Of a stretch of 36,704 nucleotides of DNA, positions 3,126 through 29,214 are shown piece after piece. Source of the DNA: an uncultured Clostridia bacterium (GTDB lineage Bacteria > Bacillota > Clostridia > Christensenellales > UBA3700); NCBI GenBank assembly GCA_945992255.1, contig CAMFVQ010000022.1, positions 1 through 36,704 of the forward strand, given 5' to 3'. The position numbers and the translations under genes are program-made. The notes beneath the pieces are model-generated. The model was not told the origin of the DNA and made no database searches. It saw nothing but the letters and a program-made list of their open reading frames with translations. Position 1 is the stretch's first letter; each line of letters begins with the position of its first letter.

Positions 3126-3220
3126 GTGGCGATTTGGGCAGGGGCTTTGGACGGCAATATGTAAAAAATAGTGCAAAAATCGCAAACAGAAAAAATAATT
3201 AAGTTTTTTTTAAGTTTGTA

Positions 3221-4002: not shown

Positions 4003-4134
4003 TCAAATAAAATAAGTAGACTTGGCAATCGTGTCAGGTCTTTTTTTTGTTGCAAAATGCAGGCATAAACCCACATATCAATTCGCACAGTGAGCAAAGC
4101 TTGTAGTTTGGGTATAAGTGGCAAAAGACAACAA

Positions 4135-4330
4135 TTACAAAGAACGCAATCTATCGCTTATTTGGAGCAAGATTGCACTTATGATTGACTGTGCAACACA
4201 CCATTGCAAAGAACGCAAGCTATCTCTCATCGAGAGCAAGGCTATGCTTACGAGTGCAAAACAAGTTACAATCATAAAGCCAAGCAAAAACGCAATATAA
4301 GAGCAAAATAGTAACAATAAGCAGTATTGC
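4135..4330. repeat. Degenerate hairpin repeats in non-coding DNA
   Basis: Two 53-nt direct copies (4135-4187 and 4204-4256) align without gaps at about 39 of 53 positions, 69 nt apart. The first folds through a perfect 7-bp stem (4146-4152 with 4170-4176). The second can form an equivalent bulged stem plus an inner CTCTC/GAGAG hairpin. A weaker third unit has a 6-bp stem (4292-4297 with 4325-4330). The shared core is the AACGCAA...GAGCAAG pattern. They resemble intergenic palindromic (REP-like) repeats; no ribosome site supports the short frames crossing them. Confidence 0.45.
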
Positions 4331-4689
4331 CAATATCGATATATAGTCCAAACAAAAAAAATATCAACTCTATGCAAAAGTGGCAAAATCATATATAACA
4401 GAAGACCTTTCTTGCGGAATAGTTTGCTCAAACAAAGGAGTATCAAGGCAGTTTTATGATTAAATTTTGAGTAGTGTATGCGATTGGCGAATGTGTAAAA
4501 ACTGGTTGATTTTATATTTATCAATAACCAATTGACATAAAAAATAAAATTTTACAAAAAAAATTTATGCTACAAAAATTGTCATAAATCACTAAGTTGT
4601 TGTAAAAAAATAATATTTTCTTGAAAAAATCGATAAGCAATCGTTATAAAAATAATTTTTTTGAAAAATTTTCTCGAATTAGTTAAGGT
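4331..4689. other. AT-rich intergenic DNA
   Basis: No gene is visible. The segment is mostly A/T runs, especially 4530-4680. It may serve as an upstream (UP-element-like or bent) region for the promoter of the giant surface operon that follows. Confidence 0.35.
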
Positions 4690-4719
4690 TTGTTTAAGAC
4701 AACAACATTATTATATAAT
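4690..4719 (+). promoter_or_regulatory. Promoter of the giant surface-protein operon
   Basis: A consensus TATAAT (4714-4719) follows TTGTTT (4690-4695) by 18 nt. It is the only clear promoter found upstream of the four-gene unit ending at 26214. Confidence 0.65.
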
Positions 4720-4729
4720 AAATAAAAAA

Positions 4730-4756
4730 CTATTACGCATTATGCTTGCGTAGTGG
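4730..4756 (+). promoter_or_regulatory. Leader hairpin abutting the ribosome binding site of the giant lipoprotein gene
   Basis: Arms 4730-4739 and 4747-4756 pair over 10 bp (including G-T pairs) with a 7-nt loop. The 3' arm ends in the GGGAGGG ribosome site (4755-4761). Folding could shield the 5' end from decay or tune translation of the first gene. Confidence 0.5.
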
Positions 4757-4765
4757 GAGGGAAAT

Positions 4766-7700
4766 ATGAGAAACAAAAAAATAGTTTTGTTAGTCGTTGT
4801 GACCATGTTGCTCATACTTTCTTTGTCCCTTGTATTCAGTGCCTGCGACTTTGATAAAAACAAGCCAGGCGATGATAATATAGGTGGCGAAGATAATATA
4901 ACACCAGGTCCAGGCGATAATACCGGCTCCGACGACGGTGATTGGGATGACGAAGATGACACCCCACCGCCTCCACCACCTCCACCAGTAAAACCTGATG
5001 GTGGCGGCGCTGTTATAATTAAACCAATGGACGTGCTTAAACAAATGGCGGCTGCTGTTGAAAAGACAAGCGGTGATGAAAAGAAACTTAACTTTGACAT
5101 GTCATCAACTATCTTGACTGATGATGGCAAAAAGTATGAGTTTTCTATCAAGACCAACTTGTCTGGCTACTTCAAAGAAGATGCAGAGTTGGGCAAGCCA
5201 GAATTGGCTATGGTGCTCAAGGATATCACTGACACCAACACAGACAACCAACCAGTAAACTTTGCTTTTTACATAATCGATGAGAAGCCATATATCCAAG
5301 TTGAGGGTTATGACCATTTGCTTTATTTGTCTGACTTCAACATGAGATATGTTCTCCAAATTTTGAAGAATGCCCCAGAAGTGCTTATACCTGAGCTAGA
5401 TAAATTGTTGGGCGGTTTGGGTTTCACTGTCGACAGCATTCTCAACCTTGTTGTAAGTATGCTATGCAGTAACGCTAAGAATGTAAAGGATGGCAATGTG
5501 ACCAATCTTTCTGTTGATGTAGAAATCAAGAGTTTTATCAAGACAGTTACCAATGCTGTAGCAGGACTTCAATTGCCAATTTCTCTCAACTTGAAGCCAT
5601 TGTTGAACACAATCAACGACCTTGTTCCAAACGTAAAGATTGCGTTGGCGGCAAAGCTTGTTGATGGAGCTTTGGCGCAAGGGGAGGAGTCTTTCTCTGT
5701 CAAACTTATCGACAAAGACATTCCAGCAAATACACAAAGTGGCAATGAGGGTTCAAATTCAGCATCATTGAAAGTCAATGAAAAATTCTCTTTTACTGCA
5801 AGTATGAAGCTTACAGAAAAAGATGTAAATATTGAACTTCCAGTTGTTACAGAAGAGGATACTAGAGAATTCAGCTTTACCAACATGGGCTTTGATATTG
5901 ACTTTATTCTCAACACAGCAGACGGCGCAGGCTCTCCAAAACAAGTTGACATTGGAGCATTGGTCAACACATTCTTGAAGCTAGATCCAAACAACAAGAC
6001 TCTACTTCCTGAAAAAATGCTTATGCTAACTGTTGATATGGGCTTTAGATTGAGCTTTAAGATTGATTTGGACTTGGACTACAAGAATTCTCCTGTAGAC
6101 AAGAACCTTATCGCTATCGAGTTGTTCCTTATCAACAAAGACCACCAAAAGATAGAGAGCAAGCCACAGCTTGGATTGTACTATCAAGATGGTGCGGCTT
6201 ATGCACAACTCGGCAACCTCATTCCTAACTATTACCAAGGCAAAAATATAAGACTTGATACCAACCTAAAACCACTTATCAGTATGTTGGTGGACAAAGT
6301 TGCAACAGAAATCGACAAAGCGTTGAAGACAGACTTTGATTCGGCTATCAATCCAAAGGGAGCAACCACTGCTCCAGCATTGGCAAGTGCTGACATTTTT
6401 ATGATTGATAAAAATGGCGAAGCAACCATTATTCCATGGTATGTAAAGCTTCTTGATGCTGTTGCTGCAACATTCGGCATTCAAGAATACCTCAAGACCG
6501 ATCACTTGACAGATGCCAACGCGTATTTGGAATTGGAAGTAAGCAACGACTTGCTTGCTGCTCTAGAAAAGTCCCTTGGTATCACAATCAGAGACAAGTT
6601 CTCATTCCCTGACAATATCGGTGATATTCGCTTGTTTATTGGTAATACTGTTGTTCCAGACAAGGATACACCGGCATACGACAAGTACAATGAGAACGGA
6701 ACAAAACAATTCGGTATCACCGGTGAAACAAGCGTTGGCGGTATCAATGTTGGCTTACAAATCCGCAACTTTGGTTTGTTCTTCCAAGATATCAACTTCA
6801 AGGAATATGTGACGAATGCAATTGGCGACAAGAAGAATGCAACCAACTCAATCAGAGCTGTGTTGGATGATGTTCTTGCCAACTTCCACTTCCAAACCAA
6901 CCTAAGCATCAACTTTACAAAGGGTACATACGATATTATCCCATTCTTGTTGGGCGTAGGTGGCGATGCTTTGAGTATGCTCGAAGGTCAACACTTGCTG
7001 TGGACATTCGATGAAGACTTCACTCTTGACGCAGATCTCATTGTTCAAATTGCACTCGACAAGAACAATAGTGCAGACAGCACGTTGGTAGTCGAGCTAA
7101 AGACCAACAAAGAAATCAGAATTGGCAGTGAAGTGTTGTTCCCAGCCAATACAGTTATCCTAGGACTATATGGATATAATAATGCTGTATATGCTGATCT
7201 ATCTAATATCAAGATAGCAAAAATCACTTTGCCTAAGCTCAAAGCTGATCTTGACTTTACAGCACTTGTCAACAAGCTCCTAGGCGACTTTGACTACAAG
7301 CTTGCATTTGACTTGACCACATTGTTCCCTAAGAAAGATGATGCAAACAACGGTACAGCAAATACAGCTGTAGACAAAGAGCAAGCTCAACAATACGCTG
7401 TTGACCAAATGTTTGTAAATGGTGACAGTCAAGGCGAGCTTACTGCAGTAGGCCAAATCATTGTAGGTGTAGACACCAACAAGTTGGCAGTAACAACCAC
7501 ACTTGCGGCAATCCTTGATCTAGTAAATTATATCAACAAAACGAATGGTAAAGAAGACAAGGTTTCTGTTGACTTTATCAAGAAAATGGATATAAATCTA
7601 GTAGCTTCTAGACTTGATGGACTCACTATTGACATAGATGCAGAACTTGTACCAAAGGTAACTCTTGACAGTAAGGGTAAGCCTGAAGTGAACGAAAAAG

Positions 7701-10700
7701 GTGAAACAATTTACACTTATGACAGCAAATTGAAGGTTCACCTCGAGACAGGTACAAGTGCTAAGCCATTGCAAATAGGCAACCTTGGCAAGCTCAAGAT
7801 TGATCTTTCTAAGAAAGCAGACGAGTTCAAGGCATATGAAGATGATCTTATCCAAGCAATTGTAAATACTATTGGTAAGGCTAAGTTCCAAGCCAAGGTA
7901 AATCTAAAGACGCTTGAAGAGACATTCAACCTAACATCAATCATCAACAACATTTTGTCTGCAAACGGCAAAGAACTCAACTTGCCAATCAACTTGCACC
8001 TTGATGATTGGAATACTTATGTTGACTTGACTGTTGCTTGGAAACTTGATCTTAACAACTTCAACAACTCTGAGCTTCAAGTAAAATTGTCATATCTCGA
8101 AAAGACATTGCTCGAAGTTGATATTTACAAGGGCAGCATCGTGATTGACCTCAGTGGACTTGGCTTCTTCAGCCTTGAACTTACCAATGCTCCATTCCTA
8201 GAACTTATCAACAATGCGCTCAAAGGCGTAGTTGACAAGCTCGGCAGCTTCAACTTGTCAGAGATTTTGAACAAAGCTCTTGGCAATTTGACACTAGGTG
8301 GAGTGACTGGCAATGACAAGATTTTGGAAAGCTATGCAGATAGTTTGCTAAGTGAAAATCCACCAGCAGGTGACAATCAATCAAAACCAGGACTTGACCA
8401 AGCTACTTTGGACTTGATTGCTGTCATCATCAATGGTGTAAGGGCAAACAACGCTACATTGTTTGTCAAGCTTGATGCTTTGATGCTTGATCAAGTACTA
8501 ACCCAACTTCTTGGCTTTGGACTAGGTATCGGTATTGGTGTAGATGCCAAATTCGACGTTGTAAATGGCGAAATCGATCTTGGACTCAAAGTAGAAAGTA
8601 TGAGCGTGGATATCAACTTGAAGATGATGGTAGGTGAAGAACCTAATATCAATGTTGACCTCAGCCTTATTCCTGACTGGGATTGTACAAATGGTGAAAC
8701 ACTTGCCAAGGCATTGTTTGACAACCTTGACATTGCGCTAGCACTCGACTACAAGCTTACCAACAAAGATATCTATCGCTTCAACCAAAGAGATAGTGGT
8801 ACAGCTCAAGTAGAAGATAATGATGATGCTAACCAAGCGGCAACATATTATACCCGTGTAATTGTTGAAAAACTCAAAACCAACAAGACGCTTGCAAATA
8901 CTGGCGGTAAGAAAGCATCTAAGGGTTCTATCCTTGTTTCACTTGGCAGTATCAACAAAACTAAATATAACAACAGCCCAACATTGGACGGCAACAACTT
9001 CTCTCCAATGTTGTATGCAGAACTCAACTACAATGAAGGCAAACTAAATGTAGCACTTGCGAAGAATTTGCTCAAATTGGGTACATTGATCGACTTTGCT
9101 GATCTTATCAATATCAGTGTCCCACTCGATATTATCAAGACTCTTGCACCTACATTCCAAGGCTTGCTTGATCAAATCAAAGATTTGAACAAAAACTTTG
9201 GCAAACCAAATGCCCCACAAGAGAATTCACCTGTTCCACTAAGTGATCCTGGCACAACTCCAACTGAGCCAAAACCAAAGACTCGTATGGATTTGGCTTT
9301 CGAGAACTTTGACATTATGCAATTGTTGAGTGGTGGTATTGATGTTTATCTCCGCAATACAGGTTTGTTCAATGCCAATGTGACATTCGATCCATTTACC
9401 ATCAACTGGTTGATCGACGAGATTATGTCTAGCGTATTCGGTCCAGACACAATCCTCAACTTGGCAGAATTGGCTCCAGACTTGTTTGCGACCAACTATT
9501 TGGCTGAAGTCAACTGGGATAGAATTGCACCAGAACACTTCTGGTTCAGCTTGCAAGATATTATTAAACCTCTTGCAAAAGAAGTTGTAAGAAAGATTCA
9601 AAATGGTAAGTATGCTGCGGCAGCTCCATTTATCACCGACACAATTTTGAACGGCTTGTATGGACAAGTAAGAAGAATTGTTGGCAGATTGGTACCATTC
9701 CCTGTATTCAACGAATTCTCTGCAGGTATCAACGTTATGGACGGCTCATTCGCCAACGTATATATCCAAGGATATGACCGCAACGAGACTGTATACTTGC
9801 CAAAGGGCAAGACAACATACTTGTGGAATCCAAACACTAAAGCATACACTCCAAGGCAAGTAGGCGAAAACGAAAATGTTGTTTACACATACTGGCAAAA
9901 GACTGGACGTGGAAGCGGCCATAGTCCTGACGTACTAGGCAACAACGAGGAGTACACACGTGAATATGTTCCTCGTGATGCAGCTCAAAATGATAAAGGT
10001 AGAACAAGTACCTATGGTAGTGTTGGTCGTGCTCGTGGCACAGCATACTGCACAGAGATTTGGCTCTACAACTGCTCACCATCAGTAGGTAGTCCTGACT
10101 ACAGCATTGACGGCAGCACAGAGGGTGTAATGACTTGGGGCGAAATCGATGCAGCTCCAAAATTCGACCCATATATGTACGGCTCTACCAAGAACGATAA
10201 GGGCGAGTATCAAACAACTGATGAAGCTAAGAGCGCATTCCTAGCTAAAGAATTCAGCAACAAAGAAGTTAAGTATCAACGTGGTGCCCAACTTCTTAAG
10301 ACAACCCCTACCTATTCTTGTGTAGCTAAGCTTGACAGCACAGGAAAACAAATTGCTACTTATGCAGGTGGCAAAGCATTGGATGCTATCAACTTCAACG
10401 AGCCAGGTATCTACAAGATTATTGCAACAGCAAACTTCACAGGCTCTGGTGTTGTAAGAACTTATGATATCTACTTGACAGTCTATGGATTTGACAAGAT
10501 TGCTGCAATCGGTCAAGAAGACCTCAACAGAGATTTTGTTGATGAAGTCCAACTCCACGCATACAGCAAGTTGCCAAGCATTTTGGTAATCAAATATGAC
10601 AAAGCAGACGTTCGTGGCGAATACAAGAGAAGAATTCCTGTGACTGATAATATGTTCATGGATTATGCTCCAGAGGGTATCCACGATCATGTACTCGGCT

Positions 10701-13294
10701 ACAAGACAGTAGATGGTCAATTGGTGGCTGACGAAGGCGGAACAAGAAGACCAGCCAAACTTGCTTTGCCAGGCTGTGAGCCTATCGCATTCAAGTTGCA
10801 CTATCTCGACAGCACAGTTGAAGATGTCAAGGGCGGTAAGTATGTATCGATTGATTTGTATCAATTCACAGCTACCAAGCCAGAAGAACTTGCACAATAT
10901 GCTCCAGAGACGCTTTACTTCCAATATCCAAATGGTGCATCTGACAAAGTTAGAGTAAATGCTGCATGGGATATGACCGAAGCTAAGGCACTCGTAGAGA
11001 AGACAGACCTCTCAGGTGCTGTATACACGATATCCAACACAATCGGATCTAGCACAACACTTCAAGATGTCAACATTTACTTTGTAGTAAAATCAAGAGT
11101 AGTAAGCAACATTGAAGTGAACGGACAATCCAACATCATCAAGATCAGTCCATATCAATATTATCTATACAATGTATCTGGACTACTTGATGAAAATGGC
11201 AACAGACTTGTTGATGATACAGGCGCTCCAATCGAAAAAGATAAGGATGAGTCACTCAACCCATTCCCAACTACTGTACAAGCGACATATACCGCAACAG
11301 TAGACAAGAATGGCAATCCATACCTCGACGAAAAGGGCAACCCAATCAAGGGATTGGACAGATACACCGAAGATGTATTGGTAAAATCTTGGAACATCAA
11401 CAAGAAGCTTGATTGGAACAACGACAACAAGATTGACCTTGAGAATGGCGTCCCAGTTAAGAACACAACATTGACACTCGACACTGTCAAGACTTATCTT
11501 GATGATAAGGGCGTAGAGCACAAAGTTTATGATACCAAGTTCTCTTGGGACTACGAACTCAACGTATCTTTGAACAGAAATCAAGTACAAGAAATCTACT
11601 TCGATGAAGAACTCAAAGTAAGAACATTCTCTATCGACCCATATCAATATAAGATATATGGTGACAAGATCTTCCCAAGACAAGCATGGGTTAAGTTCAC
11701 CAATGGTGAAGTTATGAAGATGCCTATCGGTTGGGTAAGAGAAGAGATTGACACATTCGACAGCACATTCGGATTCGAGGTGCAAAACAGACAATTCAGA
11801 GCTTATATCGGATATGACGTCAACAGCTATCCAAATGGTATTCTTACCCAAGCAGATGTCAATGAGCCAACAGGACTTCTTGCCAACGCAGATTATGCTA
11901 AGGTAAATAGTGTAAACGGCAGATTCTTGCAAAGAATTGTTGTCAACGCTAAGGTAGAAGGCTTGGTAGCAGAAGGCATCGAAATGAAGGGTAGCGCACT
12001 CAATCCAGGTACTGTATATGTGGTTGACCCAATCATCAGCAAGTATGGTATCCAAGACAAGGACGGCAATGATATTCCTGTATTCCCAGCGGAAGTAACC
12101 GTACGCTACAAGAATGGTGCAGGCACTGCGCTTCTTCCAGTAGATTGGACATACGATGCAGCTGCTGTTACCAACATCAATGGTGTTGAGCATATTGTAG
12201 CTACTGCGACTATCCGCAATACCGACATCAGCTTCGACATCAACTGCAGAGTGCTTGACAGAAGCAACCCAATTGTCACAGACAAGACTCGCACAATCAA
12301 CCCTTACGAGTTCACCACTGACAAGAACGGCAACAGAGTATACAAAGCATTCACCAGTGATATCAAGGCAAAATACTTCAAGAGCTATACACTCAGAGTA
12401 ACCAAAGTTGCGACAGCAACTGAAGCTGAAGAGGTATTCGATATAACCGACTTGCTTACTGATGAAGCACTCCAAGCTAAGATTGCTGAGTTGACTACCG
12501 GTGAGAACAAAGACAAGTACACAACTGAGACTATCAAGGTTTACGATACATACGAGACCATGAAGGTAGAATATTTCACAAGCTACACCCTCAAAGTAAC
12601 TAAGGTTGTGAAAGAAGGCGAAGAAAAGGAGGAATTCGAGGTAACAGACTTGTTTACCGACGATATGCTCCAAGCTGAGATTGCTAAGTGGACCACAGGT
12701 GACAACAAAGACAAGTACACCGTAGCTACTACAGAGGTTCGTGACACATACGATATTCCAGTTGTTTGGAACACACGTGCAATCAACTACATAGCTCCTC
12801 TCACCCAAAACAAAGATGTAACAATCAATGCTTATGCTACATTCAAGGGCGGCGACAAAGCAGTTGAAACAATCACCGTTCCTTGCACAATCTTGTACAA
12901 GAAAGTAATGGCTATCAATGAAGATGAGGATTATACATTCTACATTGTCAAAGGTGGTAAGAACTTGTCTGACATAGAGCGCAATACTCATATTGTAGAA
13001 AAAGATATGTATGTTACATTCACCAACGGCACAAAGAAGCCAGGCGATGAGCCAGGTACTGAAATTTGGGACCCAGCAGGTCTTGAATCTGTAAAGACTA
13101 AGGTGACATTTGACTTCACCAAAATAGACTTTACAAATGAAAACTATGACTTGGAAAAAGATGTACTAATATTTGCTCCATACACAGCAACGGCTTACAT
13201 CATGAAGGGTACAGACCTCGAACAAACAATTAATATTAAGGTATATGTAACAACAGCTCCAACTGAAAGCACTGACTCTTCAGTTGGAGAATAA
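4766..13294 (+). CDS. Giant 2842-residue lipoprotein: repeated beta-rich modules, then Ig-like modules
   Basis: Not assignable to a named family. Residues 1-27 are a lipoprotein signal peptide with lipobox FSAC (C27), so the mature protein is lipid-anchored outside the membrane. Residues 28-82 are an acidic, glycine/proline linker with a run of eight prolines. From about 85 to 1640 a theme recurs: a beta strand, a YxxDG-like turn, an LxNL strand, then an amphipathic leucine-rich helix (for example near 165, 468, 797, 1115, 1416). The first unit resembles LolA/LppX-type lipoprotein sheets; this is inference. From about 1650 to the end are Ig-like modules with PYQY/PYEF starts and FTNG...PVxW strands (near 2126, 2289, 2417, 2509), including a 66-residue tandem duplication (2536-2667). 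There is no C-terminal anchor. GGGAGGG lies 4 nt before the ATG. First gene of the operon. Confidence 0.9.
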   Translation: MRNKKIVLLVVVTMLLILSLSLVFSACDFDKNKPGDDNIGGEDNITPGPGDNTGSDDGDWDDEDDTPPPPPPPPVKPDGGGAVIIKPMDVLKQMAAAVEKTSGDEKKLNFDMSSTILTDDGKKYEFSIKTNLSGYFKEDAELGKPELAMVLKDITDTNTDNQPVNFAFYIIDEKPYIQVEGYDHLLYLSDFNMRYVLQILKNAPEVLIPELDKLLGGLGFTVDSILNLVVSMLCSNAKNVKDGNVTNLSVDVEIKSFIKTVTNAVAGLQLPISLNLKPLLNTINDLVPNVKIALAAKLVDGALAQGEESFSVKLIDKDIPANTQSGNEGSNSASLKVNEKFSFTASMKLTEKDVNIELPVVTEEDTREFSFTNMGFDIDFILNTADGAGSPKQVDIGALVNTFLKLDPNNKTLLPEKMLMLTVDMGFRLSFKIDLDLDYKNSPVDKNLIAIELFLINKDHQKIESKPQLGLYYQDGAAYAQLGNLIPNYYQGKNIRLDTNLKPLISMLVDKVATEIDKALKTDFDSAINPKGATTAPALASADIFMIDKNGEATIIPWYVKLLDAVAATFGIQEYLKTDHLTDANAYLELEVSNDLLAALEKSLGITIRDKFSFPDNIGDIRLFIGNTVVPDKDTPAYDKYNENGTKQFGITGETSVGGINVGLQIRNFGLFFQDINFKEYVTNAIGDKKNATNSIRAVLDDVLANFHFQTNLSINFTKGTYDIIPFLLGVGGDALSMLEGQHLLWTFDEDFTLDADLIVQIALDKNNSADSTLVVELKTNKEIRIGSEVLFPANTVILGLYGYNNAVYADLSNIKIAKITLPKLKADLDFTALVNKLLGDFDYKLAFDLTTLFPKKDDANNGTANTAVDKEQAQQYAVDQMFVNGDSQGELTAVGQIIVGVDTNKLAVTTTLAAILDLVNYINKTNGKEDKVSVDFIKKMDINLVASRLDGLTIDIDAELVPKVTLDSKGKPEVNEKGETIYTYDSKLKVHLETGTSAKPLQIGNLGKLKIDLSKKADEFKAYEDDLIQAIVNTIGKAKFQAKVNLKTLEETFNLTSIINNILSANGKELNLPINLHLDDWNTYVDLTVAWKLDLNNFNNSELQVKLSYLEKTLLEVDIYKGSIVIDLSGLGFFSLELTNAPFLELINNALKGVVDKLGSFNLSEILNKALGNLTLGGVTGNDKILESYADSLLSENPPAGDNQSKPGLDQATLDLIAVIINGVRANNATLFVKLDALMLDQVLTQLLGFGLGIGIGVDAKFDVVNGEIDLGLKVESMSVDINLKMMVGEEPNINVDLSLIPDWDCTNGETLAKALFDNLDIALALDYKLTNKDIYRFNQRDSGTAQVEDNDDANQAATYYTRVIVEKLKTNKTLANTGGKKASKGSILVSLGSINKTKYNNSPTLDGNNFSPMLYAELNYNEGKLNVALAKNLLKLGTLIDFADLINISVPLDIIKTLAPTFQGLLDQIKDLNKNFGKPNAPQENSPVPLSDPGTTPTEPKPKTRMDLAFENFDIMQLLSGGIDVYLRNTGLFNANVTFDPFTINWLIDEIMSSVFGPDTILNLAELAPDLFATNYLAEVNWDRIAPEHFWFSLQDIIKPLAKEVVRKIQNGKYAAAAPFITDTILNGLYGQVRRIVGRLVPFPVFNEFSAGINVMDGSFANVYIQGYDRNETVYLPKGKTTYLWNPNTKAYTPRQVGENENVVYTYWQKTGRGSGHSPDVLGNNEEYTREYVPRDAAQNDKGRTSTYGSVGRARGTAYCTEIWLYNCSPSVGSPDYSIDGSTEGVMTWGEIDAAPKFDPYMYGSTKNDKGEYQTTDEAKSAFLAKEFSNKEVKYQRGAQLLKTTPTYSCVAKLDSTGKQIATYAGGKALDAINFNEPGIYKIIATANFTGSGVVRTYDIYLTVYGFDKIAAIGQEDLNRDFVDEVQLHAYSKLPSILVIKYDKADVRGEYKRRIPVTDNMFMDYAPEGIHDHVLGYKTVDGQLVADEGGTRRPAKLALPGCEPIAFKLHYLDSTVEDVKGGKYVSIDLYQFTATKPEELAQYAPETLYFQYPNGASDKVRVNAAWDMTEAKALVEKTDLSGAVYTISNTIGSSTTLQDVNIYFVVKSRVVSNIEVNGQSNIIKISPYQYYLYNVSGLLDENGNRLVDDTGAPIEKDKDESLNPFPTTVQATYTATVDKNGNPYLDEKGNPIKGLDRYTEDVLVKSWNINKKLDWNNDNKIDLENGVPVKNTTLTLDTVKTYLDDKGVEHKVYDTKFSWDYELNVSLNRNQVQEIYFDEELKVRTFSIDPYQYKIYGDKIFPRQAWVKFTNGEVMKMPIGWVREEIDTFDSTFGFEVQNRQFRAYIGYDVNSYPNGILTQADVNEPTGLLANADYAKVNSVNGRFLQRIVVNAKVEGLVAEGIEMKGSALNPGTVYVVDPIISKYGIQDKDGNDIPVFPAEVTVRYKNGAGTALLPVDWTYDAAAVTNINGVEHIVATATIRNTDISFDINCRVLDRSNPIVTDKTRTINPYEFTTDKNGNRVYKAFTSDIKAKYFKSYTLRVTKVATATEAEEVFDITDLLTDEALQAKIAELTTGENKDKYTTETIKVYDTYETMKVEYFTSYTLKVTKVVKEGEEKEEFEVTDLFTDDMLQAEIAKWTTGDNKDKYTVATTEVRDTYDIPVVWNTRAINYIAPLTQNKDVTINAYATFKGGDKAVETITVPCTILYKKVMAINEDEDYTFYIVKGGKNLSDIERNTHIVEKDMYVTFTNGTKKPGDEPGTEIWDPAGLESVKTKVTFDFTKIDFTNENYDLEKDVLIFAPYTATAYIMKGTDLEQTINIKVYVTTAPTESTDSSVGE
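12371..12766 (+). repeat. Tandem 198-bp in-frame duplication inside the giant lipoprotein gene
   Basis: Unit 1 (12371-12568) and unit 2 (12569-12766) encode two abutting 66-residue blocks with 38 identical residues (58%), sharing YF-SYTL-VTKV, LQA-IA and NKDKYT. The copies have diverged, so the duplication is not recent. Confidence 0.9.
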
Positions 13295-13309
13295 GGGGGG
13301 ACGTGATAG

Positions 13310-16300
13310 ATGACAACAACAAATCACAAACTTATCATATCAATCATAGCAGCGATACTAGCAGTATCGTTGCTATGCACGGTGTGTTTTATAGCACAAG
13401 GCAAAGTGGAGAATGCTGACAGAGTATATGCGGCATCTGATTACTCTGCTGATTGCACTAGCCAAGACGGCACTATCCAAGCCAACGAGAATACTGAAGT
13501 AGGTGAGGATGGTAGAGTCCACTACAAAGTTGGCAAGGAACCAGTTCCAGCAGGCAAAACTCTTGTTAACATTAACAGCCAAGCCGAATTGCACGATTTT
13601 ATGAAAAACAATGCAGGCAAGTACGGTGTGCTTAAAACGGATATTGCTTTGGACTGGACAGGTACAACCAAAACATTTTTTGGTGGAGCCAACAGCTCAG
13701 ACCAAAATCTTGATGCCAGTGCAGTTTTGGATGGCAATGGCTACAATATCAGCATCAAGGGTGGTGTAGGTACAGGTAAATACTCTGCTCATACCACAAC
13801 AGACAACAAAGAAATCATGCCGGTGCCAAACAAATGTGATGAACAACAAGACAATGGCAAAGAAAGCGTGCAAATCATATTTACAGGTTTCCTCTTTGCC
13901 AAGACAATGGGTGAAATCAAGAATACAACATTTGAGTTTACATCTTCTCATGCGTTTTCAGGCAGTCAAGACATCAACGGAAACCAAATGTTGTTCAGCA
14001 ATGGAGATAAATATTTGGCATCAGCCGGTATAGTGACAGGTGGGTTGATTGGCGGAAAAATTGACAACTGCCGTCTCAATGTAAATAAGCCATTTGTACA
14101 CGGTACAAGCTATAAGGGTTATACACTAGCAAACACCTATTATCAAGAAAACGGTGCGTTCACCGGCGGTATTGCAGGTCTTGCAACCCATGGCGGCAGC
14201 ATCAATAACGTAACCGTCGACATCAAGACAAGTGGCTCAATCATCTCGCACGTGAATGGTTGTAGTGTAGGTGCAAACAGCACACGTTCCGGTCTTGCAA
14301 TCGCAGGCGGTGTTGTGGGTAACTATGCTCCAACTACCACCGCCACCCAAGGTACCCAACTCAATTATATTACTTTGATGGGTACAGGCAATGTCGAAGC
14401 TTATGTAGGTTATGCGTCTGGTGATGCCAACTTCCAAACTTTCCCTGGCGGAGTGATGGGTGCAAGTATGTATCTCACCGGTTGGAACTCTTGGAAGAAC
14501 TATGCAGGCACCAACGAATACACCAGATATTACGATGGTCAAAATGTCAACGAGAACAATGCCGCAATTAAGGGCATAATTTCAGGCTGGCAAGGAAAAG
14601 TTAGACACAATTTGCGTCGTGCCTTTGGTAAAAGAGACGAAAATGGCGTAACAGGAACATTGTTTGGCGCTGTAGCCGGTCAAAGTGGTGATGTATCCAA
14701 ATTCAAGGGTGTTGCCACATTGTTTGACTATGTAGGCAAGCGTGATGGTGCTGATGCGTTCGATATAGAGCATGCAGCCAGCTTGAAATACACAGACAAC
14801 GCAGTTCAAATTTATCCTGACACAACCAATGGTAATTTGAACGTATCTTTCGACAAGAGACCGGAAACAGTATACATGTTCCGTGTTAAGGCGGCAGCTG
14901 ATGGCTATGATGCAACCCAATTGTTCAGCCAAGATTATGCAGGTGCATCAAAAGCAGATGTCCTCAATGCTAAAGAATATGGATACTTTATTTGGAGTGT
15001 AGACAACAACGGCAGTGTTGTCACCCCTGAAGATGTAGAGGTAGCAGAAGTGCGTTATATTGCGCCTACAGCGTCAGGTAGTTATGTATATACTTTTGGT
15101 GAAGCACTCCAATATAGCTATACATCCAACAACGTTGGCGAAAATGGTAATGCTTATAGAGCATACAATGGTCAATCTCTAATAGATCCAACATTTACGC
15201 TCACCGGCAAGTCAGGAGCTGTAACTCCAGCCACAACCGATGGCAAGACTTATCAAAAGATTGGAGTAGATGGCAACCCAGTACTAGATAGCTCAGGCAA
15301 TCCGGAAACATACACCAAGCCTGCATACCAACTAGAATTGAGAACAATTCTTCAAGACAATGTTATTGGTGACCACAGCAGAGCAAAGCTCCCTGGCAAC
15401 TATAAATACAGAGCAAAATATGATGGCAAAGACACTTTTGCATATATGGATTATGCCAACAGACAACTTGCAAGATATGAAAAGGACAACAACAACGTGT
15501 TCTCTATCAGAGTTGCTACACTCAATGTAACTGGCAATGTAGAAAACTGGGTACAACAAGCCAATCTCAATTTGTCAATTGGCGAAGGTGCAACTGCGCC
15601 ATTCGACTTGATACGTTACACCAAGAGTGGTATTATGTCTGATTTTGTTCCAACAGGAGGAACTGTTTCACACACATTTGCTATCAACGAAACAACTTCT
15701 GAGTATGGTGATGCATACACATTCGATGCTTATTGTACAGAGCAATATCCGGACGGACGCAAAATCAATGTCCTAGTTGCTCAATCAGAAGGTCGTGTTG
15801 TTGTCAATGTAGATGCTTCGGCACCAACTATGAGCAATGTCCAATACTTTAGAGAAACTACAACTGACACTTGGACTCCAATCACAGAGTTGGAGGCTAC
15901 TACCAATTGGGTTAAATCTCGTATCAAGATGACCTATGAACTCAGCGATGATGGCCGTTCAGGTATCTCAAGTGTCAATGGTGGTAAAATTGTCGACAAT
16001 TCTACAAGTATTTGGAAGTGTGAGACTATCATGGACAAAGGACAAGTCTACACAATCACTTGCACAGACCAAATGGGCAATGTGATGACCAAAGAAGTCA
16101 ACGTTAGCATTGATACTGTAGATCCAACTTTGAATGTTGCACTTGGTTATTTTAACACAAGTGACTTCTATGATTACAATGATATCAAATGCTATTCACG
16201 TGCATTGCCAGTCGAGTACAATGCAACTATTGGTGGCAGTGGCTATGAGCTTTGGGCGTCTATCTCGAAAGATGAAAATGGAGAAGATGTTTGGTTCAAG

Positions 16301-19114: not shown

Positions 19115-19135
19115 TCATATAAGGTGAGGTTTATT

Positions 19136-22100
19136 ATGACAAAAATAAACAAAAAATCTATTATCGCATTGATTGTAGCCTTGGCGGCAGTCGTTGCAAT
19201 TTTGGGTTCTATTCTGTTTGCAGCCAATTCCACCAGTTCCGATACATTCGGAACTGGCATGGGCGGAGCATACCCAAATGTCAACGTTGTCAACGCAGGC
19301 TATGGCAGTGGCGATGTTCCAAGTGGACATACGCAGAGCGGTCTTGAAATTACAGATAAAGACACTTTGATTTCTTTCTTGAAGGGAGAAAAGGGCACAG
19401 AGGGTTATCTAAATGTTGACTCCATTACTATCGGCGCTGACACTGGTATCGATATGATACCTGCGGGTATTACGCTTGACGGCAATGGTAAAACTATCAA
19501 GTTCGAAGGCATTAGTGATTTTACTCTAGGTGAAATTGATTATGCGGGCAATGCTGCGACAGAAAAGTGGAAATTCCTAGACAGCAGCATCAGTGGCACA
19601 CAGCCTTTGAGAGCTGCTGGTGGACTTGCTCAAGCTTTGTGTGGCACTATCAAGAACACCAAGTTCGAGTGGAACAGCACAATCACGCAAAGTCAAACTG
19701 CCTCAGACAGATCAATTACTATTGGTTTGATAGCAGGTATTTGCAATGGTACAATCGAGAACTGTTCTGTAACAATCAACAACAATGTATCTATTAGATA
19801 CCAGCTGAAGGACTTAACCAGAGACCCAAGATTTCATACCGTTGCACTCGGTGGATTCGTTGGCGTACTTGCTGGCAAAGGTAAAGTTTCCAACTCTACA
19901 ATCAATATGAATGCCACACTTACCGGTAAAATTACTGGTTATAAAGATGGACGAACGGCTTTTGCTAATTGTACAGGTATGAACAGATTGTTCATTGGTG
20001 GTGTAGCCGGTGTTATGAACAGCAATAGCTTTGTAACCAACATCACCACTCTCGGCACAGGCAACTTTGATGCCTATGCTGACCCATATCCATCATATGG
20101 TTCAAAAGATAAGAAACCAAATGTTGTAGCAGCATCAGGTATCATTGCAGGTTGCAATGCTACAGCCATCGTTGACACCGTAACTGGCCAAGATGCCAAT
20201 ATGAGTATGGGTGCCTATGGTGGCAATGGTACTATCGACGGCGTATTCAATATGTGGACAGGTACAGCCAGAGCCAATCATGGTCGCGGCGAATATAAGA
20301 CATTTGGTGACACTGGATTGACAGCTGATTTTAAGAAAGCAACATCCGAAAACATTGGAACAGGCGGTGCGGGCGAGTATTACAACGCCGTTCTACCTGG
20401 TGTCATCGCCGGTCTTGCAGGCACATGGAACGGAAGCGATGCAAGCAAAGATGGCACTGGAAATGACAACATTTACAATGTATACTACATAGGTATGTCT
20501 GCACCAGCAGCTCTTGCAGCTAGGAACTGGACACCAGAGGCAAATCGTTCTAAGGGATATTCTATCTCTGTCAATGATAACAATGCTGGCGGTAGCTGTG
20601 CTTTCTCATTCAAGAATGCAGATGGTGGCACTCCTGACGCAACTGCCATTCCAACACTTACATATACCACTCCAACTGCAGACAATCAAATTGTATGGAG
20701 TGTAAATCTCAAGAAGAATGACGCACTCTCAGCAGTAGACAATGTATATGAGAGAGTTGGCTCTGTCAACAATGTATCCAAATTTACCACATGGAATTCT
20801 GGCGCTCAAATCACCAGAGGTCAAACTGTAGGTGGCGATAAATATTTGTTTGAGATCGACAATGGTCTTGTACTTGCTGCAGGCAATGTAAATGATTTGC
20901 AACTTGACGGCACCAACAATGTTTACCAAGCAGCTGAAAGAGAATTTGATGGAACAGCTATCCCAACTCCAAAGTTGAATCTATACAAAGATTGGGATTT
21001 TACAAACAAAGTAGGAGTATACGAGAACAAAGCTATTTGGAACGCATACAAAGGTGGTCAAGTGAAAGTTGATAGTCTTGACGACACCAAAGACGCAGCC
21101 GATTGGGTTTTGAAGATACCTACCACTGCTGACAATGCAGTAGTGCTTAGCGGTAAACTCGCAGGTGAAAATTTTGTGGTGTTCCAAGAACCTAAAATAA
21201 AATATGGTATCAACTTCAAACAAACTATCACTCCAAAGACACTTACCGCCAGCTGGAAAACAACTCCACATAATTCTGTTTATGATGGCAATCCAGTCAA
21301 CTTTGACGTCCAATTGGACGGCATTGTAAATGGTTTCCCTGCACAAGCGGAAGTAAAATATTATCTAAGCAACAATGATCCGGTAGCTCAAGCTATCAAA
21401 GCACAATCTTATATTGCCAAAACAACAGGCTTGAATTCTACCAACTACAAATTGCAAGCAAATCTTAGTGAGACTTTCGATATTACCAAGAGACCTATCA
21501 CGATAGAACAAGGCAATATTGATTTGACTTACACCGGACTCGACCAAAAGCCAAGCGTAGCAATTGTCAAATCGGACAATACTACATATTTCTCAGGTGA
21601 TGAAAATTCTCCTATCAAGGTAAAGAACCTTGTAGATGATGGTGTAATCAGTGTCAACTACGTATCAACCGCAGCTAACCATTCGTTCAAAGATGCCGGC
21701 AACTATACTGTTGAGATAGGATTTGCAAGTGGCGATATCACCAGCAACTATGAGTTCGCTCAAGATGCGCAACAAACAATTGGATATGAAATCAAGAAGC
21801 ATGTCCTAAGTCTCGAAATTGCAAGCGACGAATCAACTACAATTATTGAAGTAAATGGTGTACCTCAAACAGCAGTTGTTCGTCAGTATGTTGGTAATAA
21901 TATTGCAAATATAAAATTCAGTTATAACAAACCTGAGAATGGCACCAATCCAAATGTGGAAGTTATGTATGCTCTTGTGAATGGCGAGGGCAACCCATCA
22001 CCTTGGATACGCAATGTAGGTGAATACAGATTTACAGCTACATTGCCAGGCCAAAGCGTGAACAACGCCAACTACCAACTAGCAGATGGAGAATTCAACG

Positions 22101-25100
22101 GCTATCTTGTTATCCAGCCAAGGGCTTTGAGCATAACTTGGGACGCAACATTCCCAACATCTATTCCATTCGACGGAAACGAACATCCTTGTGAGTTGGC
22201 TACAGTATCAGGCTTGGTAGGTAAAGACACTGTAACACTATCTTACACCTACACCAAGAATGGTGAAGTATTCAATGGTGTGCCAAGAGATGCAGGAACT
22301 TATGAAGTAAAAGCAATTTTGGCAGACAGCAATATATCAAACAACTATACAGTAGACTCATCTCAAAACACCAAGGCTTTTGATATCACCCCAATGGATA
22401 TCTCTATCAAAGCAAAAGCTGTAAGCAGACAATATGGCTATGCCAACCCAACTTTTGAGTGGGAATATGTGGAGGGCTCAAACCAAATCTTAGCTGATGA
22501 TCTTGGCGGAGTAACAATCAACCTCCAATCAGAGGCCAACGAAGCATCTATCCCGGGCAAATATGCAGTAACTTATGTTGATGCAACTGGCGACAAGGCT
22601 GCCAACTACAATATCACATTCGTGGACAGCCCAGAAGCTCTTGAAATTATCCCAAGAGAAATCCATGCAACAATTGATACATTGGAGATCACTTATGGCG
22701 AAAATCCATTCGACAAAGAAGTAGTCTATACTCTTGCCGAGGGTAGCAGCTTCATCGAAGCTGACCAAATGCGTATAGTTGCCAACTTTGATTATGTTCA
22801 ATTCGGAAAAGCTGGCACTTACAATATGACAGCTACCCTAGATTCTAATGCGGGCTATGAAAAAACTGCATACTACAACTTGATTGTTGATGGCGAAAAC
22901 AACTTGATTGTCAACAAGAAAACTATCAATGTAGCATCTATCAATTGGGCAGTTGCTGACAATACTTATGACGGCACCAACAAACAAGCTAAAGTTGTTG
23001 TGAATGACGGAGAGATTGTCAACAATGACCAAGTAGAATTTACTCTCGAGTACACATTCAATGGAGCTGTCACAACCAACACAGCTGCAGCAGGTCAATA
23101 CGACGTTGTTGCAACTCTCACAGATGGCAGATATGAGCTTGCAGAAACTGCTTTTGCTAATTTGACCATTGCAAAGAGAAATGTAACACTCACTTTGGCT
23201 GATATCAAAGTTGTTTATGGCACCGAAAAACCAACTGATTTTGGTGTAACATATGCAAGCGGCAGCCTTGAGTTCGTAGCAAGTGACAATGTTACAACCA
23301 CAGCTTCTACCGAATACAACAGAACAAGCGTAGTTGGCAGTTATGCAATTAGCGTAACCACCAATGCCGATAAAAACAACTATAACGTTGTGGTAGATAG
23401 AGAAGCTTTTGTAGTGGTATCACCAAAAACAATCACTGCAACACTTACAATGCCAACAGACTTTGTATACAATGCCGTTGCTAAGCAAGTCGAGGTGCAA
23501 TTCAGTGGTATAATCAACAATGACCTTGTAGCTCCAGTTATCACATACAACGATGAGACAGAAGCTATTGATGCAGGCAAGTATGTTGTAAAAGTAACTT
23601 GCGACAATGAAAACTATGTTGTAGAACCACTCACAACAGGCAACGAATTCACTATCACCCCTGCAGAATTGAAATTCTCTGTAGAGAACGGAACTAAGGG
23701 CTATCACTCAGCTCAAGTTGTATTCGCAAACGACAGCATTGGATACTCTTATGAAGGCGAAATCTACAAAAGAGATGCCAAAGGTGTATATATCAATGTT
23801 GCAGTTGCGGAAATTGCCGAAGAAAAGCTTGGCGAAACATATCCAAATGTTTTGTACATAACACTTTCTGGTGCAAAAGCAGGCAACTACACAGCTACTA
23901 CTATCAGCAAGGGTGCGGTAACAATCGAGGCTAACAAGCTATCCAACATTGTATTGAGCAGCGACAGCAATGTGTACGATGCAACCAACCACAAAGATAC
24001 AATCCAAATTCTCAATGCAAAACTTGATGACTTCACTATCACATACAGCAGTGACGAATTCAAGAATGCTGGCACATACACAATCACACTTGTTTTGAAA
24101 GAGTCAGCAAAAGAAATGTATGACACCACCGAAGGCACAGAAAAAGTATTGACTTACACCATCACCAAACGCCAAGTTACTCTTGTTGCAACAGACAAAG
24201 TCAACGTAACTTATGGTGACAACAAGCCAGCCGATGCGGATATGTGGGCTTACGGCGAAGGTAGCCTACAATTCGTAGAAAGCGACAATGTTGTGGTAAC
24301 AGTAAACAATGCTTACACCAACACCACCAATGCAGGCGCAGATATCGATGTAACATTCTCAACCACCGCAAACGACAACTATGATGTTGTATTGCCAGAG
24401 GGCGTGAAGATGAATATCTCCAAGAAAGCTCTTACAGCAACTTTTGCCCAACCAGATGACCTCACTTTCGACAATACTGCCAAGGTAATGGGAGTAACTC
24501 TCGAGGGTATGGTAAATGGTGAGGCTGCTCCAGCAGTGACTATCACTTACAACGGAGCCACAGAAGCAAAGGGCGCAGGCGAATACGAAGTTGTTGTTTC
24601 AATCGCTGAGGGCAACTACACAGTCGACGCTACAACTACTATGACAATCAATGCTAGAGAGTTGACCGTAGCGTTCACACTCCCAACAGAGCTTGCATAC
24701 AACAAAACAGCTAAGACAGCTACCGCTACATTCGGCAACTTGCCAGAGGGCGTAACTGAAGTTGCACATAGCATCGTTTACAAGCAAGGCGAAAATGTTG
24801 TAGAGAATGCTATCAATGCAGGCGACTACGTTGTAGATGTAATTTTCAGTGACAACAACTACACACTTGCAGCTCACGAGCCAGCTACATTCACTATCAC
24901 CAAGAAAGATGTAACAGCAACAATCGAAGTAGCTGATACAACTTACACAGGTAGTGCAATCAAAGCTAGTGTTAAGTTCGAGGGTGTACTCGAAGGCGAT
25001 GAAATCACTTCTTACACCTTGACTTACAACGGAGCAGCTGAAGCTATCAATGCAGGCGAATATGCAGTAGCTTTGACTATCACTGATCCAAACTACAACC

Positions 25101-25705
25101 TTGCAGAAGAAGTGGCAGCAACTTTGAACATCACCAAAGCTAACCAAACTTTGACCAACAAGGGACTTAGCGTAGTAGCAAACTACAACAAACTCACCGT
25201 AAATGGTGGTACAGCAAAAATGGAATACAAGCTCCAAAACGGCAACTGGCAAAAGAGCAATGTATTCGGCAATGGTATCAAGGCAGAAACAAACTACACA
25301 ATCGTTGTAAGACTTGTAGGTGATGACAACCACAACGCGAGCAACGAAGTAACCTTGACAGCAGTTAAGACTGGCGTTGACCCAACTCCAATCAATGCAA
25401 AGCTCGACACAATCAATGATACATTCGGTTTTGAAGATATTGCAGTGATGAAAGAGATTGAAGAAATGATCAGCAAGATTGCCGCTCAAGATATGTCTTA
25501 TATCGACAATGCAAAACTCAGCAATGCAAGAGAAGCTTATGCGAAGTTCGTTGAGGATGTAAATACCGTTGTCAACGAAGCTCAAATCGCTGCAGCTAAG
25601 GCAGCTGGTAGAAATGTTGGGGCAGCAGCCGCAGCAGCTACCGCAGCAAGCGTATCTTTGTTGGGCGTTGCACTCGCTATCGCTAAAAAGAAAATGTTGT
25701 TCTAA
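19136..25705 (+). CDS. 2189-residue surface protein with about 16 tandem MBG-type modules and a C-terminal membrane anchor
   Basis: Related in plan to the preceding gene. The start at 19136 is preferred over an in-frame GTG at 19124 because AAGGTGAGG (19121-19129) is its ribosome site. Residues 1-31 are a signal peptide; about 60-480 look like a beta-helix (LDGNGKTIKF, LGGFVGVLAGKG). From about 600 to 2000 come roughly 16 tandem modules of 75-105 residues. These are of two kinds: ones with VxYGxxP and a GSLxFV segment, and ones with LxYNxTAK. Residues of about 2080-2150 are predicted helical and charged, like a stalk. The end is an alanine-rich membrane helix (about 2158-2182) and a KKKMLF tail, again without LPXTG. 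The MBG array would project the N-terminal domain tens of nanometres from the membrane. Ligand unknown. Gap to the previous stop is 21 nt. Confidence 0.88.
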   Translation: MTKINKKSIIALIVALAAVVAILGSILFAANSTSSDTFGTGMGGAYPNVNVVNAGYGSGDVPSGHTQSGLEITDKDTLISFLKGEKGTEGYLNVDSITIGADTGIDMIPAGITLDGNGKTIKFEGISDFTLGEIDYAGNAATEKWKFLDSSISGTQPLRAAGGLAQALCGTIKNTKFEWNSTITQSQTASDRSITIGLIAGICNGTIENCSVTINNNVSIRYQLKDLTRDPRFHTVALGGFVGVLAGKGKVSNSTINMNATLTGKITGYKDGRTAFANCTGMNRLFIGGVAGVMNSNSFVTNITTLGTGNFDAYADPYPSYGSKDKKPNVVAASGIIAGCNATAIVDTVTGQDANMSMGAYGGNGTIDGVFNMWTGTARANHGRGEYKTFGDTGLTADFKKATSENIGTGGAGEYYNAVLPGVIAGLAGTWNGSDASKDGTGNDNIYNVYYIGMSAPAALAARNWTPEANRSKGYSISVNDNNAGGSCAFSFKNADGGTPDATAIPTLTYTTPTADNQIVWSVNLKKNDALSAVDNVYERVGSVNNVSKFTTWNSGAQITRGQTVGGDKYLFEIDNGLVLAAGNVNDLQLDGTNNVYQAAEREFDGTAIPTPKLNLYKDWDFTNKVGVYENKAIWNAYKGGQVKVDSLDDTKDAADWVLKIPTTADNAVVLSGKLAGENFVVFQEPKIKYGINFKQTITPKTLTASWKTTPHNSVYDGNPVNFDVQLDGIVNGFPAQAEVKYYLSNNDPVAQAIKAQSYIAKTTGLNSTNYKLQANLSETFDITKRPITIEQGNIDLTYTGLDQKPSVAIVKSDNTTYFSGDENSPIKVKNLVDDGVISVNYVSTAANHSFKDAGNYTVEIGFASGDITSNYEFAQDAQQTIGYEIKKHVLSLEIASDESTTIIEVNGVPQTAVVRQYVGNNIANIKFSYNKPENGTNPNVEVMYALVNGEGNPSPWIRNVGEYRFTATLPGQSVNNANYQLADGEFNGYLVIQPRALSITWDATFPTSIPFDGNEHPCELATVSGLVGKDTVTLSYTYTKNGEVFNGVPRDAGTYEVKAILADSNISNNYTVDSSQNTKAFDITPMDISIKAKAVSRQYGYANPTFEWEYVEGSNQILADDLGGVTINLQSEANEASIPGKYAVTYVDATGDKAANYNITFVDSPEALEIIPREIHATIDTLEITYGENPFDKEVVYTLAEGSSFIEADQMRIVANFDYVQFGKAGTYNMTATLDSNAGYEKTAYYNLIVDGENNLIVNKKTINVASINWAVADNTYDGTNKQAKVVVNDGEIVNNDQVEFTLEYTFNGAVTTNTAAAGQYDVVATLTDGRYELAETAFANLTIAKRNVTLTLADIKVVYGTEKPTDFGVTYASGSLEFVASDNVTTTASTEYNRTSVVGSYAISVTTNADKNNYNVVVDREAFVVVSPKTITATLTMPTDFVYNAVAKQVEVQFSGIINNDLVAPVITYNDETEAIDAGKYVVKVTCDNENYVVEPLTTGNEFTITPAELKFSVENGTKGYHSAQVVFANDSIGYSYEGEIYKRDAKGVYINVAVAEIAEEKLGETYPNVLYITLSGAKAGNYTATTISKGAVTIEANKLSNIVLSSDSNVYDATNHKDTIQILNAKLDDFTITYSSDEFKNAGTYTITLVLKESAKEMYDTTEGTEKVLTYTITKRQVTLVATDKVNVTYGDNKPADADMWAYGEGSLQFVESDNVVVTVNNAYTNTTNAGADIDVTFSTTANDNYDVVLPEGVKMNISKKALTATFAQPDDLTFDNTAKVMGVTLEGMVNGEAAPAVTITYNGATEAKGAGEYEVVVSIAEGNYTVDATTTMTINARELTVAFTLPTELAYNKTAKTATATFGNLPEGVTEVAHSIVYKQGENVVENAINAGDYVVDVIFSDNNYTLAAHEPATFTITKKDVTATIEVADTTYTGSAIKASVKFEGVLEGDEITSYTLTYNGAAEAINAGEYAVALTITDPNYNLAEEVAATLNITKANQTLTNKGLSVVANYNKLTVNGGTAKMEYKLQNGNWQKSNVFGNGIKAETNYTIVVRLVGDDNHNASNEVTLTAVKTGVDPTPINAKLDTINDTFGFEDIAVMKEIEEMISKIAAQDMSYIDNAKLSNAREAYAKFVEDVNTVVNEAQIAAAKAAGRNVGAAAAAATAASVSLLGVALAIAKKKMLF

Positions 25706-25716
25706 GGAGGTGTACA

Positions 25717-26214
25717 ATGAAAAAGAAATATTTGATTGCAGTACTTGCACTAACAATTATTTTGACAGTAGCGATGACAGGTTGTTTTGTAAAGGTTAGC
25801 ATTGCTGACATTTACAACGCCGCATCATACAAGCCCCAAACCTCAGGCAACAGAACATTGTCTTTGACCGTGAAGAATGGCGATACTGTCGTATACAGCA
25901 ATATCAATGGTGAGATTACCCAAATCGAAGGATTCGAGTTCGACAATCTCATCACAGCCGATGCAGGCACAGGCTTTGCTTTCCAATCCAGCTACTTCAA
26001 AGATGAAAAGTTGAACAAAGGAAGCACAGAGTCTACCTACACAGCCAACATCGTGGACACCCAAAACTTCTTGGGTGTGTCCGATGCAACCGATGCAACT
26101 ATCAAAGTTGTTGTAGACACCAAAGCAAAGACTTTGAAGTCAACCACAATCAATTACAAGGTAACTAAGTCTGATTTGACTTTTGATGTGGAAATCAACG
26201 TAAGCGTTGCATAA
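25717..26214 (+). CDS. Small predicted lipoprotein closing the surface operon
   Basis: A 165-residue protein with a lipoprotein signal peptide (lipobox MTGC, C23) and an all-beta mature part. Strands such as TLSLTVKNGDTVVY and ATIKVVVDTKAKTLKS have the look of LolA/LppX-like lipoprotein sheets, like the first module of the giant lipoprotein, but no diagnostic motif is present, so this is weak inference. AAGGAGGT overlaps the stop codon of the preceding gene and the ATG follows 11 nt after that stop, which indicates co-translation with the big surface proteins. A strong terminator follows. Function unknown; an accessory role for the surface proteins is suggested by position only. Confidence 0.85.
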   Translation: MKKKYLIAVLALTIILTVAMTGCFVKVSIADIYNAASYKPQTSGNRTLSLTVKNGDTVVYSNINGEITQIEGFEFDNLITADAGTGFAFQSSYFKDEKLNKGSTESTYTANIVDTQNFLGVSDATDATIKVVVDTKAKTLKSTTINYKVTKSDLTFDVEINVSVA

Positions 26215-26265
26215 GTAGCCAAAGCTTAGAGCCATTCGCTCCAAGCCAAGGTAAGTTTAACGACC

Positions 26266-26297
26266 AAAACGGCGGTATTCGTACCGCCGTTTTTTAT
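26266..26297 (+). terminator. Strong terminator of the surface operon with UUCG loop
   Basis: Arms 26266-26277 and 26282-26293 form a perfect 12-bp stem capped by TTCG, the extra-stable tetraloop, with a continuing T run. It ends the 21.5 kb unit. Confidence 0.93.
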
Positions 26298-29175: not shown

Positions 29176-29214
29176 AAATTGATAAACGAAAAATCGTGCA
29201 AAAATGGAGAAAAT

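Follow-up and report, generated by a model that had tools for sequence, protein, structure and literature searches.

A conserved four-gene locus for very large membrane-anchored surface proteins, with a candidate OmpR/PhoB-type promoter, in uncultured Clostridia

The window analysed here, a stretch of 36,704 nucleotides from an uncultured Clostridia bacterium (assembly GCA_945992255.1, contig CAMFVQ010000022.1), belongs to a 1.48 Mb draft genome that is about 98% complete, and its named relatives are uncultured Christensenellaceae and Clostridia metagenome assemblies. Four consecutive plus-strand genes, which we call P1 to P4, make up the locus. P1 (4766-13294) encodes a lipoprotein of 2842 residues, with beta-rich units of about 330 residues at positions of about 90-1300 and C-terminal repeats after them; P2 (13310-19114) encodes 1934 residues with a signal peptide and a C-terminal membrane helix; P3 (19136-25705), a paralogue of P2, encodes 2189 residues with a signal peptide, MBG repeats and a C-terminal membrane helix; and P4 (25717-26214) encodes a lipoprotein of 165 residues that is fused to P3 in genus g4. 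The spacers measure 15, 21 and 11 nt, the second shrinking to 9 nt if P3 begins at the alternative GTG at 19124 (2193 residues), the ATG at 19136 having the better-placed ribosome site. The gene set ends at an intrinsic terminator hairpin on the same strand (26266-26293, -17.8 kcal/mol) with a T run after it, which a consensus terminator scan did not list, probably because the T run lies partly within the stem. Both the four-gene layout with its gaps of 11-21 nt and the strong terminator that the initial annotation had described are therefore borne out. Downstream of the operon lies a gene for a BspA-type leucine-rich-repeat protein (29179-30900), syntenic in relatives, and near the contig end a minus-strand large serine recombinase gene (33702-35363; Resolvase, Recombinase and DUF4368 domains) marks the possible edge of a mobile element.

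The four open frames are real genes. In a comparison with the nearest relative (G001), differences amount to 0.61-0.69 at third codon positions and 0.27-0.42 at second positions across all four genes, and this dominance of third-position changes indicates that P1 to P4 are all under protein-level constraint. The orthologous frames are open at every locus.

Each product carries an export signal and a membrane tether, as had been proposed. The lipoboxes of P1 (FSAC27) and P4 (MTGC23) each end a hydrophobic leader, their cysteines (Cys27 and Cys23) are invariant across the alignments, and a signal peptidase II gene (LspA) was found in the window's genome, so that both proteins have the hallmarks of bacterial lipoproteins. 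P2 and P3 each start with an export segment and, near the C-terminus, carry a hydrophobic helix (residues 1908-1926 and 2168-2186, respectively) with lysines after it; no LPXTG-type motif precedes the helix in either tail, and these are not sortase-anchored adhesins by that test. A single-family search of the draft, about 98% complete, found no Omp85 or outer-membrane assembly gene, and the host cell is therefore probably bounded by a single membrane.

The paralogy of P2 and P3 is evident from a profile match (E 4.5e-51) and from blastp across the N-terminal 437 residues (E 1.6e-13). In P3 the Pfam domains MBG_2 and MBG_3 score 70.2 and 47.4 bits, over the cut-off of 25, while the single MBG domain of P2 scores 22.9 bits, below it. 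The idea that P4 might be a single P1-type unit was rejected, as no profile match extends past the signal peptide.

P1 itself, with its internal repeats of about 330 residues, matches no Pfam family above cut-off and, by sequence, nothing in the PDB; its relatives carry Big_4 and InlB-type repeats, and the counterparts of its C-terminal repeats are Ig-like. A 1200-residue structural model was set aside (pLDDT 63, pTM 0.50) and residues 88-535 (448 residues) were folded in its place, giving a predicted model with a pLDDT of 75. Foldseek matched this model to the staphylococcal tandem lipoprotein SAOUHSC_02783, Csa1B, LolA and LolB at probabilities of 0.97-1.0, with TM-scores of only 0.3-0.4. 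The resemblance of P1 to LolA/LolB-type folds is thus weak, and we regard it as a lead. It does raise the question of whether the locus handles lipids or other hydrophobic ligands in the envelope, the tandem LolA-like units of P1 binding, passing or storing a ligand across the wall, with P2 and P3 as scaffolds. The Foldseek probabilities, the repeated units and the lipid anchor of P1 speak for such a role; we nevertheless consider it unlikely, given the low TM-scores and the pLDDT of the model, the lack of any sequence match between P1 and LolA or any other lipid-binding family, and the outer-membrane assembly gene not found in the genome.

The P1 family is, judged by the libraries searched, without a match and previously undescribed, and some of its members are very large lipoproteins. 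A profile built on P1 residues 91-1290 also picks up sequences from other families within the order, which nearly always lie in very large frames of up to 12,531 residues, and in genus g2 the P1 homologue reaches 7,100-7,370 residues. The five giant relatives that we read are single lipobox proteins of 9,117-12,524 residues (the frame in G049 extending beyond the fetched stretch), with a P1 N-terminal domain right after the anchor that is clear in G036, G049 and G040 and weak in G198 and G175. These giants with an N-terminal lipobox sit in small Christensenellales genomes of 1.4-2.0 Mb (G175:C50:12630-50204, L106-L108; G198, G036, G049 and G040, L102-L119). G040 shows the same layout as P1 to P4: the giant comes before an MBG protein of 5,991 residues that has a C-terminal helix, and a 307-residue lipoprotein stands after that. 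The lipoprotein of G040 (family f7) matches P4 at E=1.6e-5, but the match vanishes once the signal peptide is removed, and it is not demonstrably a P4 homologue. In a sample of 391 genomes of the class the P1 N-terminal domain turned up within the order only, and a viral origin was dismissed since no relative occurs in viral contigs.

Orthologues of P1 occur in 33 of the 59 relatives searched, all of them members of one family (f1). In 14 mapped genomes from genera g1, g3, g4 and g6, the window included, the order is response regulator (often followed by a histidine kinase), P1, P2, P3 and P4, and the flanks of these neighbourhoods, genes for HI0933-like, FAD-dependent and leucine-rich-repeat proteins, are mostly kept too; at some of the loci the fetched stretch or the contig stops before one flanking gene. 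Homologues are thus not routinely found apart, an outcome that would have refuted the initial reading: their order is kept across genera at an identity of about 30-50%. P4 lies adjacent to P3 or is fused with it in 29 of the 31 genomes that have a significant P4 match (E of about 1e-6 or better; our own count). The P1-P2 gap is usually 0-21 nt, and that between P3 and P4, where the genes are separate, is 2-14 nt. An apparent lack of P2 in genus g3 was refuted by profile matches to the gene in that slot (E about 1e-143 to 1e-164).

Because the flanking housekeeping genes are equally syntenic, order alone could be passive and is weak evidence. It is nonetheless very improbable, and already disfavoured, that the four genes merely share synteny within one family and have no functional link: the tight P1-P2 and P3-P4 gaps persist while identity drops to about 30%, the combination is repeated in paralogous clusters elsewhere, and fusions occur in two genera. 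In genus g3 such clusters at other loci combine a gene resembling P1 with genes for an MBG-type membrane protein and a lipoprotein resembling P4, and the window's own genome carries on contig C12 (L026:9434-11786) genes for a P3-like protein (626 residues) and a P4-like protein (160 residues) amid housekeeping genes. The homology of P4 in these clusters persists when the mature part is compared without the signal peptide. The paralogous clusters and the P3-P4 fusions argue for a functional unit more strongly than gene order does.

The fusions deserve closer description. Of the 14 g4 genomes that match P4, 13 have P3 and P4 in one open frame, as does a single case in genus g2 (G017). The fused chain keeps the P3 C-terminal helix; lysine-rich sequence and another hydrophobic segment lead from it to a conserved lipobox-like cysteine and the P4 domain, and the lipobox cysteine is retained in all seven fused sequences that we read (e.g. 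VFAGC, VFTGC, VMVGC). If the first helix runs from outside to inside and the second from inside to outside, the fused P4 would lie outside the membrane, like the separate lipoprotein. The retention of the lipobox cysteine suggests that signal peptidase II could cut the fused chain there, the genome in which LspA was found being that of the window; the natural fusion offers a direct test of whether signal peptidase II processes a membrane polyprotein internally. One may go further and propose both that P1 and its giant relatives across the order are membrane-anchored filaments of many LolA-like units and that the g4 polyprotein is cut at its internal lipobox by signal peptidase II. We see little chance that the two hold together. 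If they did, filaments of P1 and of its relatives of 9,000-12,500 residues would carry or conduct hydrophobic molecules through a monoderm wall, and the cut would separate a lipoprotein from its membrane-protein partner, supplying the two at a 1:1 ratio.

The spacer between P2 and P3 differs among genera. It is short in g1 and g6, the window and its genus having no stem-loop there, while in g3 and part of g4 it forms a very stable stem-loop with no T run, whose sequence varies by genome (loci L050, L052, L055, L049, L059, L041, L068, L071 and L090; the spacer as a whole folds at about -24 to -55 kcal/mol). Such a stem-loop could adjust how much upstream product is made relative to downstream product, and in g3 and g4 it may partially uncouple the two halves of the operon. 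These stem-loops are one of several observations that suit another explanation, according to which P1, P2 and P3 are separate adhesins that share a locus and a promoter, each with its own ligand, and are clustered through common regulation of a surface-display phase, in the manner of other clusters of giant genes. The paralogy of P2 and P3 is typical of duplicated adhesins, giants of the P1 type can occur on their own in other families of the order, and the Giant1-5 cluster of Apilactobacillus kunkeei has been read as an adhesin-like set (PMC12863079). Against it, the recurrent P3-P4 fusion favours an assembled unit, and P1, an MBG protein and P4 recur together at paralogous loci. We take separate adhesins to be a serious but minority possibility, and the most credible of the alternatives.

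Turning to expression, the initial annotation had spoken of one visible promoter. Consensus scanning lends this no support: promoter-like hits numbered 35 and 44 against 25.5 +/- 5.7 and 31.7 +/- 5.9 in shuffled sequences, several of them inside genes, and being common within genes and barely above the shuffles they were dropped as evidence for a single promoter. At the start coordinate first proposed there is, on the other hand, a conserved direct repeat, GTTAAG-N5-TTTAAG (4682-4698, plus strand), one mismatch away from TTTAAG-N5-TTTAAG, with a -10 region at 4709-4719 on the same strand in which TATTAT, placed exactly 10 bp past the box as in other genomes, overlaps a TATAAT at 4714-4719. In most of the P1 genes and P1 paralogues examined, the start codon is preceded at 31-99 bp by a box that has no more than one mismatch, against a background rate of about 0.0075 per 400 bp; near the start codon it is absent at L072, L090, L092 and two other paralogues, the P1 genes of L072 and L090 having no box within 400 bp. 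Among the 23 aligned promoters with a site, which cover four genera and are related sequences rather than 23 independent events, 19 have a hexamer matching TATAAT at four or more of six positions at an offset of 10, the best offset tested. The G001 genome contains a single exact match to the box, before P1, and the window's genome contains six sites with at most one mismatch, two of which are the one ahead of P1 and the one ahead of the regulator gene. A single regulated promoter before P1 is supported by these conserved sites. The leader that follows contains a stem-loop just before the P1 ribosome site (4730-4756, plus strand, -13.3 kcal/mol), and in G001 a comparable hairpin of other sequence is visible by eye. 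Two imperfect 57-nt direct repeats, 74% identical, also lie at 4131-4256, within the noncoding stretch of 800 bp that separates the regulator gene from P1.

The gene upstream of this stretch (3265-3966, plus strand), syntenic with P1 across the family, encodes a response regulator of 233 residues whose receiver and Trans_reg_C domains (Pfam Response_reg and Trans_reg_C) place it in the OmpR/PhoB family. In most relatives this spot additionally holds a gene for a histidine kinase, recognised by its kinase domains; no kinase is adjacent in the genus to which the window belongs. The distance from a PhoB site to the -10 hexamer downstream of it is 10 bp in Escherichia coli (PMC1906773). The P1 promoter shares the geometry of OmpR/PhoB-activated promoters, with direct repeats phased at 11 bp and placed 10 bp upstream of the -10 (PMC1906773), and from this spacing and the neighbouring gene of the same regulator family we infer that the adjacent regulator drives the operon. 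The repeat of the P1 promoter is TTTAAG and not the pho box of PhoB-type activated promoters; as a candidate binding site it amounts to a concrete prediction of a regulator and its target. A second box, ATTAAG-N5-TTTAAG (3198-3214, plus strand), of the response-regulator type, stands before the regulator gene. Autoregulation through it was rejected as a general feature, the box having at most one mismatch only in the two g1 genomes (that of the window and G001), two mismatches in G011 and no counterpart in nine other genomes. An exact TTTAAG-N5-TTTAAG also occurs about 450 bp before the P1-profile match of a P1 paralogue (L123, G030:C13:899-915), which suggests that the regulon may extend to paralogous clusters.

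Taken as a whole, the locus is probably an operon under two-component control for a membrane-anchored surface complex. The response regulator encoded upstream would bind the TTTAAG direct repeats and switch on one promoter, the adjacent system thereby regulating all four genes. P1, its N-terminal lipid in the outer leaflet, would project as a chain of beta units, whose LolA-like fold is predicted from the model, followed by Ig-like repeats. P2 and P3 would each consist of a repetitive stalk, built of MBG repeats in P3, that bears a conserved N-terminal domain, and be anchored by their C-terminal helices, with P4 working as a small lipoprotein beside the membrane-proximal end of P3. P1 to P4 would then form a physical complex that most likely works outside the wall, in the gut, as a means of attachment or of capturing a ligand. 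The dedicated envelope apparatus first suggested for this DNA thus gains support as a functional unit from the conserved order, the P3-P4 fusions and the paralogous clusters. Its contrast with separate adhesins is not borne out, in view of the adhesin-like paralogues P2 and P3, the inferred nature of the complex, the g3/g4 stem-loops and the P1-type giants that can stand alone.

We found no published description of this four-gene system in the literature searched, and it represents a conserved surface system for an uncultured gut lineage; the P1-promoter repeat, the P3-P4 fusion with its lipobox, the P1 family with its giants and the P2/P3 paralogy are new here. Several known systems resemble parts of it. 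To the LolA/LolB superfamily the P1 model is similar in the order of helices and strands, at a Foldseek probability of up to 0.97, and it differs in the TM-score of 0.3-0.4 and in having no sequence or profile match, within a genome where no outer membrane assembly gene was found. The best Foldseek matches to the N-terminal model are the staphylococcal Lpl/Csa1 proteins (PDB 4eg9, 4egd, 4big), which like P1 are lipid-anchored surface proteins of a monoderm; they are single-domain proteins of about 200 residues, whereas P1 has 2842 residues, several units and further repeats, and is without a sequence or profile match in Pfam or the PDB. P3, with several MBG domains above cut-off, resembles MBG-domain surface proteins (PF18676, PF18887), and P2 has one such domain below it; what differs is the anchoring by a C-terminal helix without LPXTG and the pairing with P1 and P4.

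The nearest analogue is the five-gene cluster of giants in the 1.5 Mb genome of A. kunkeei, which looks similar in plan. Both consist of consecutive genes for giant secreted surface proteins with repetitive stalks, kept among relatives (PMC12863079). The A. kunkeei giants carry SH3b-like domains for wall binding at their C-termini and lack predicted transmembrane helices (PMC12863079), and clusters of that type are further marked by an N-terminal beta-solenoid resembling that of serine-rich repeat proteins; none of the P1 to P4 products has an SH3 match in Pfam, and P2 and P3 end in helices. The operon described here is set apart by its lipid anchors, its C-terminal helices and its other repeat families, as well as by the small lipoprotein that accompanies the giants and the two-component gene next to them.
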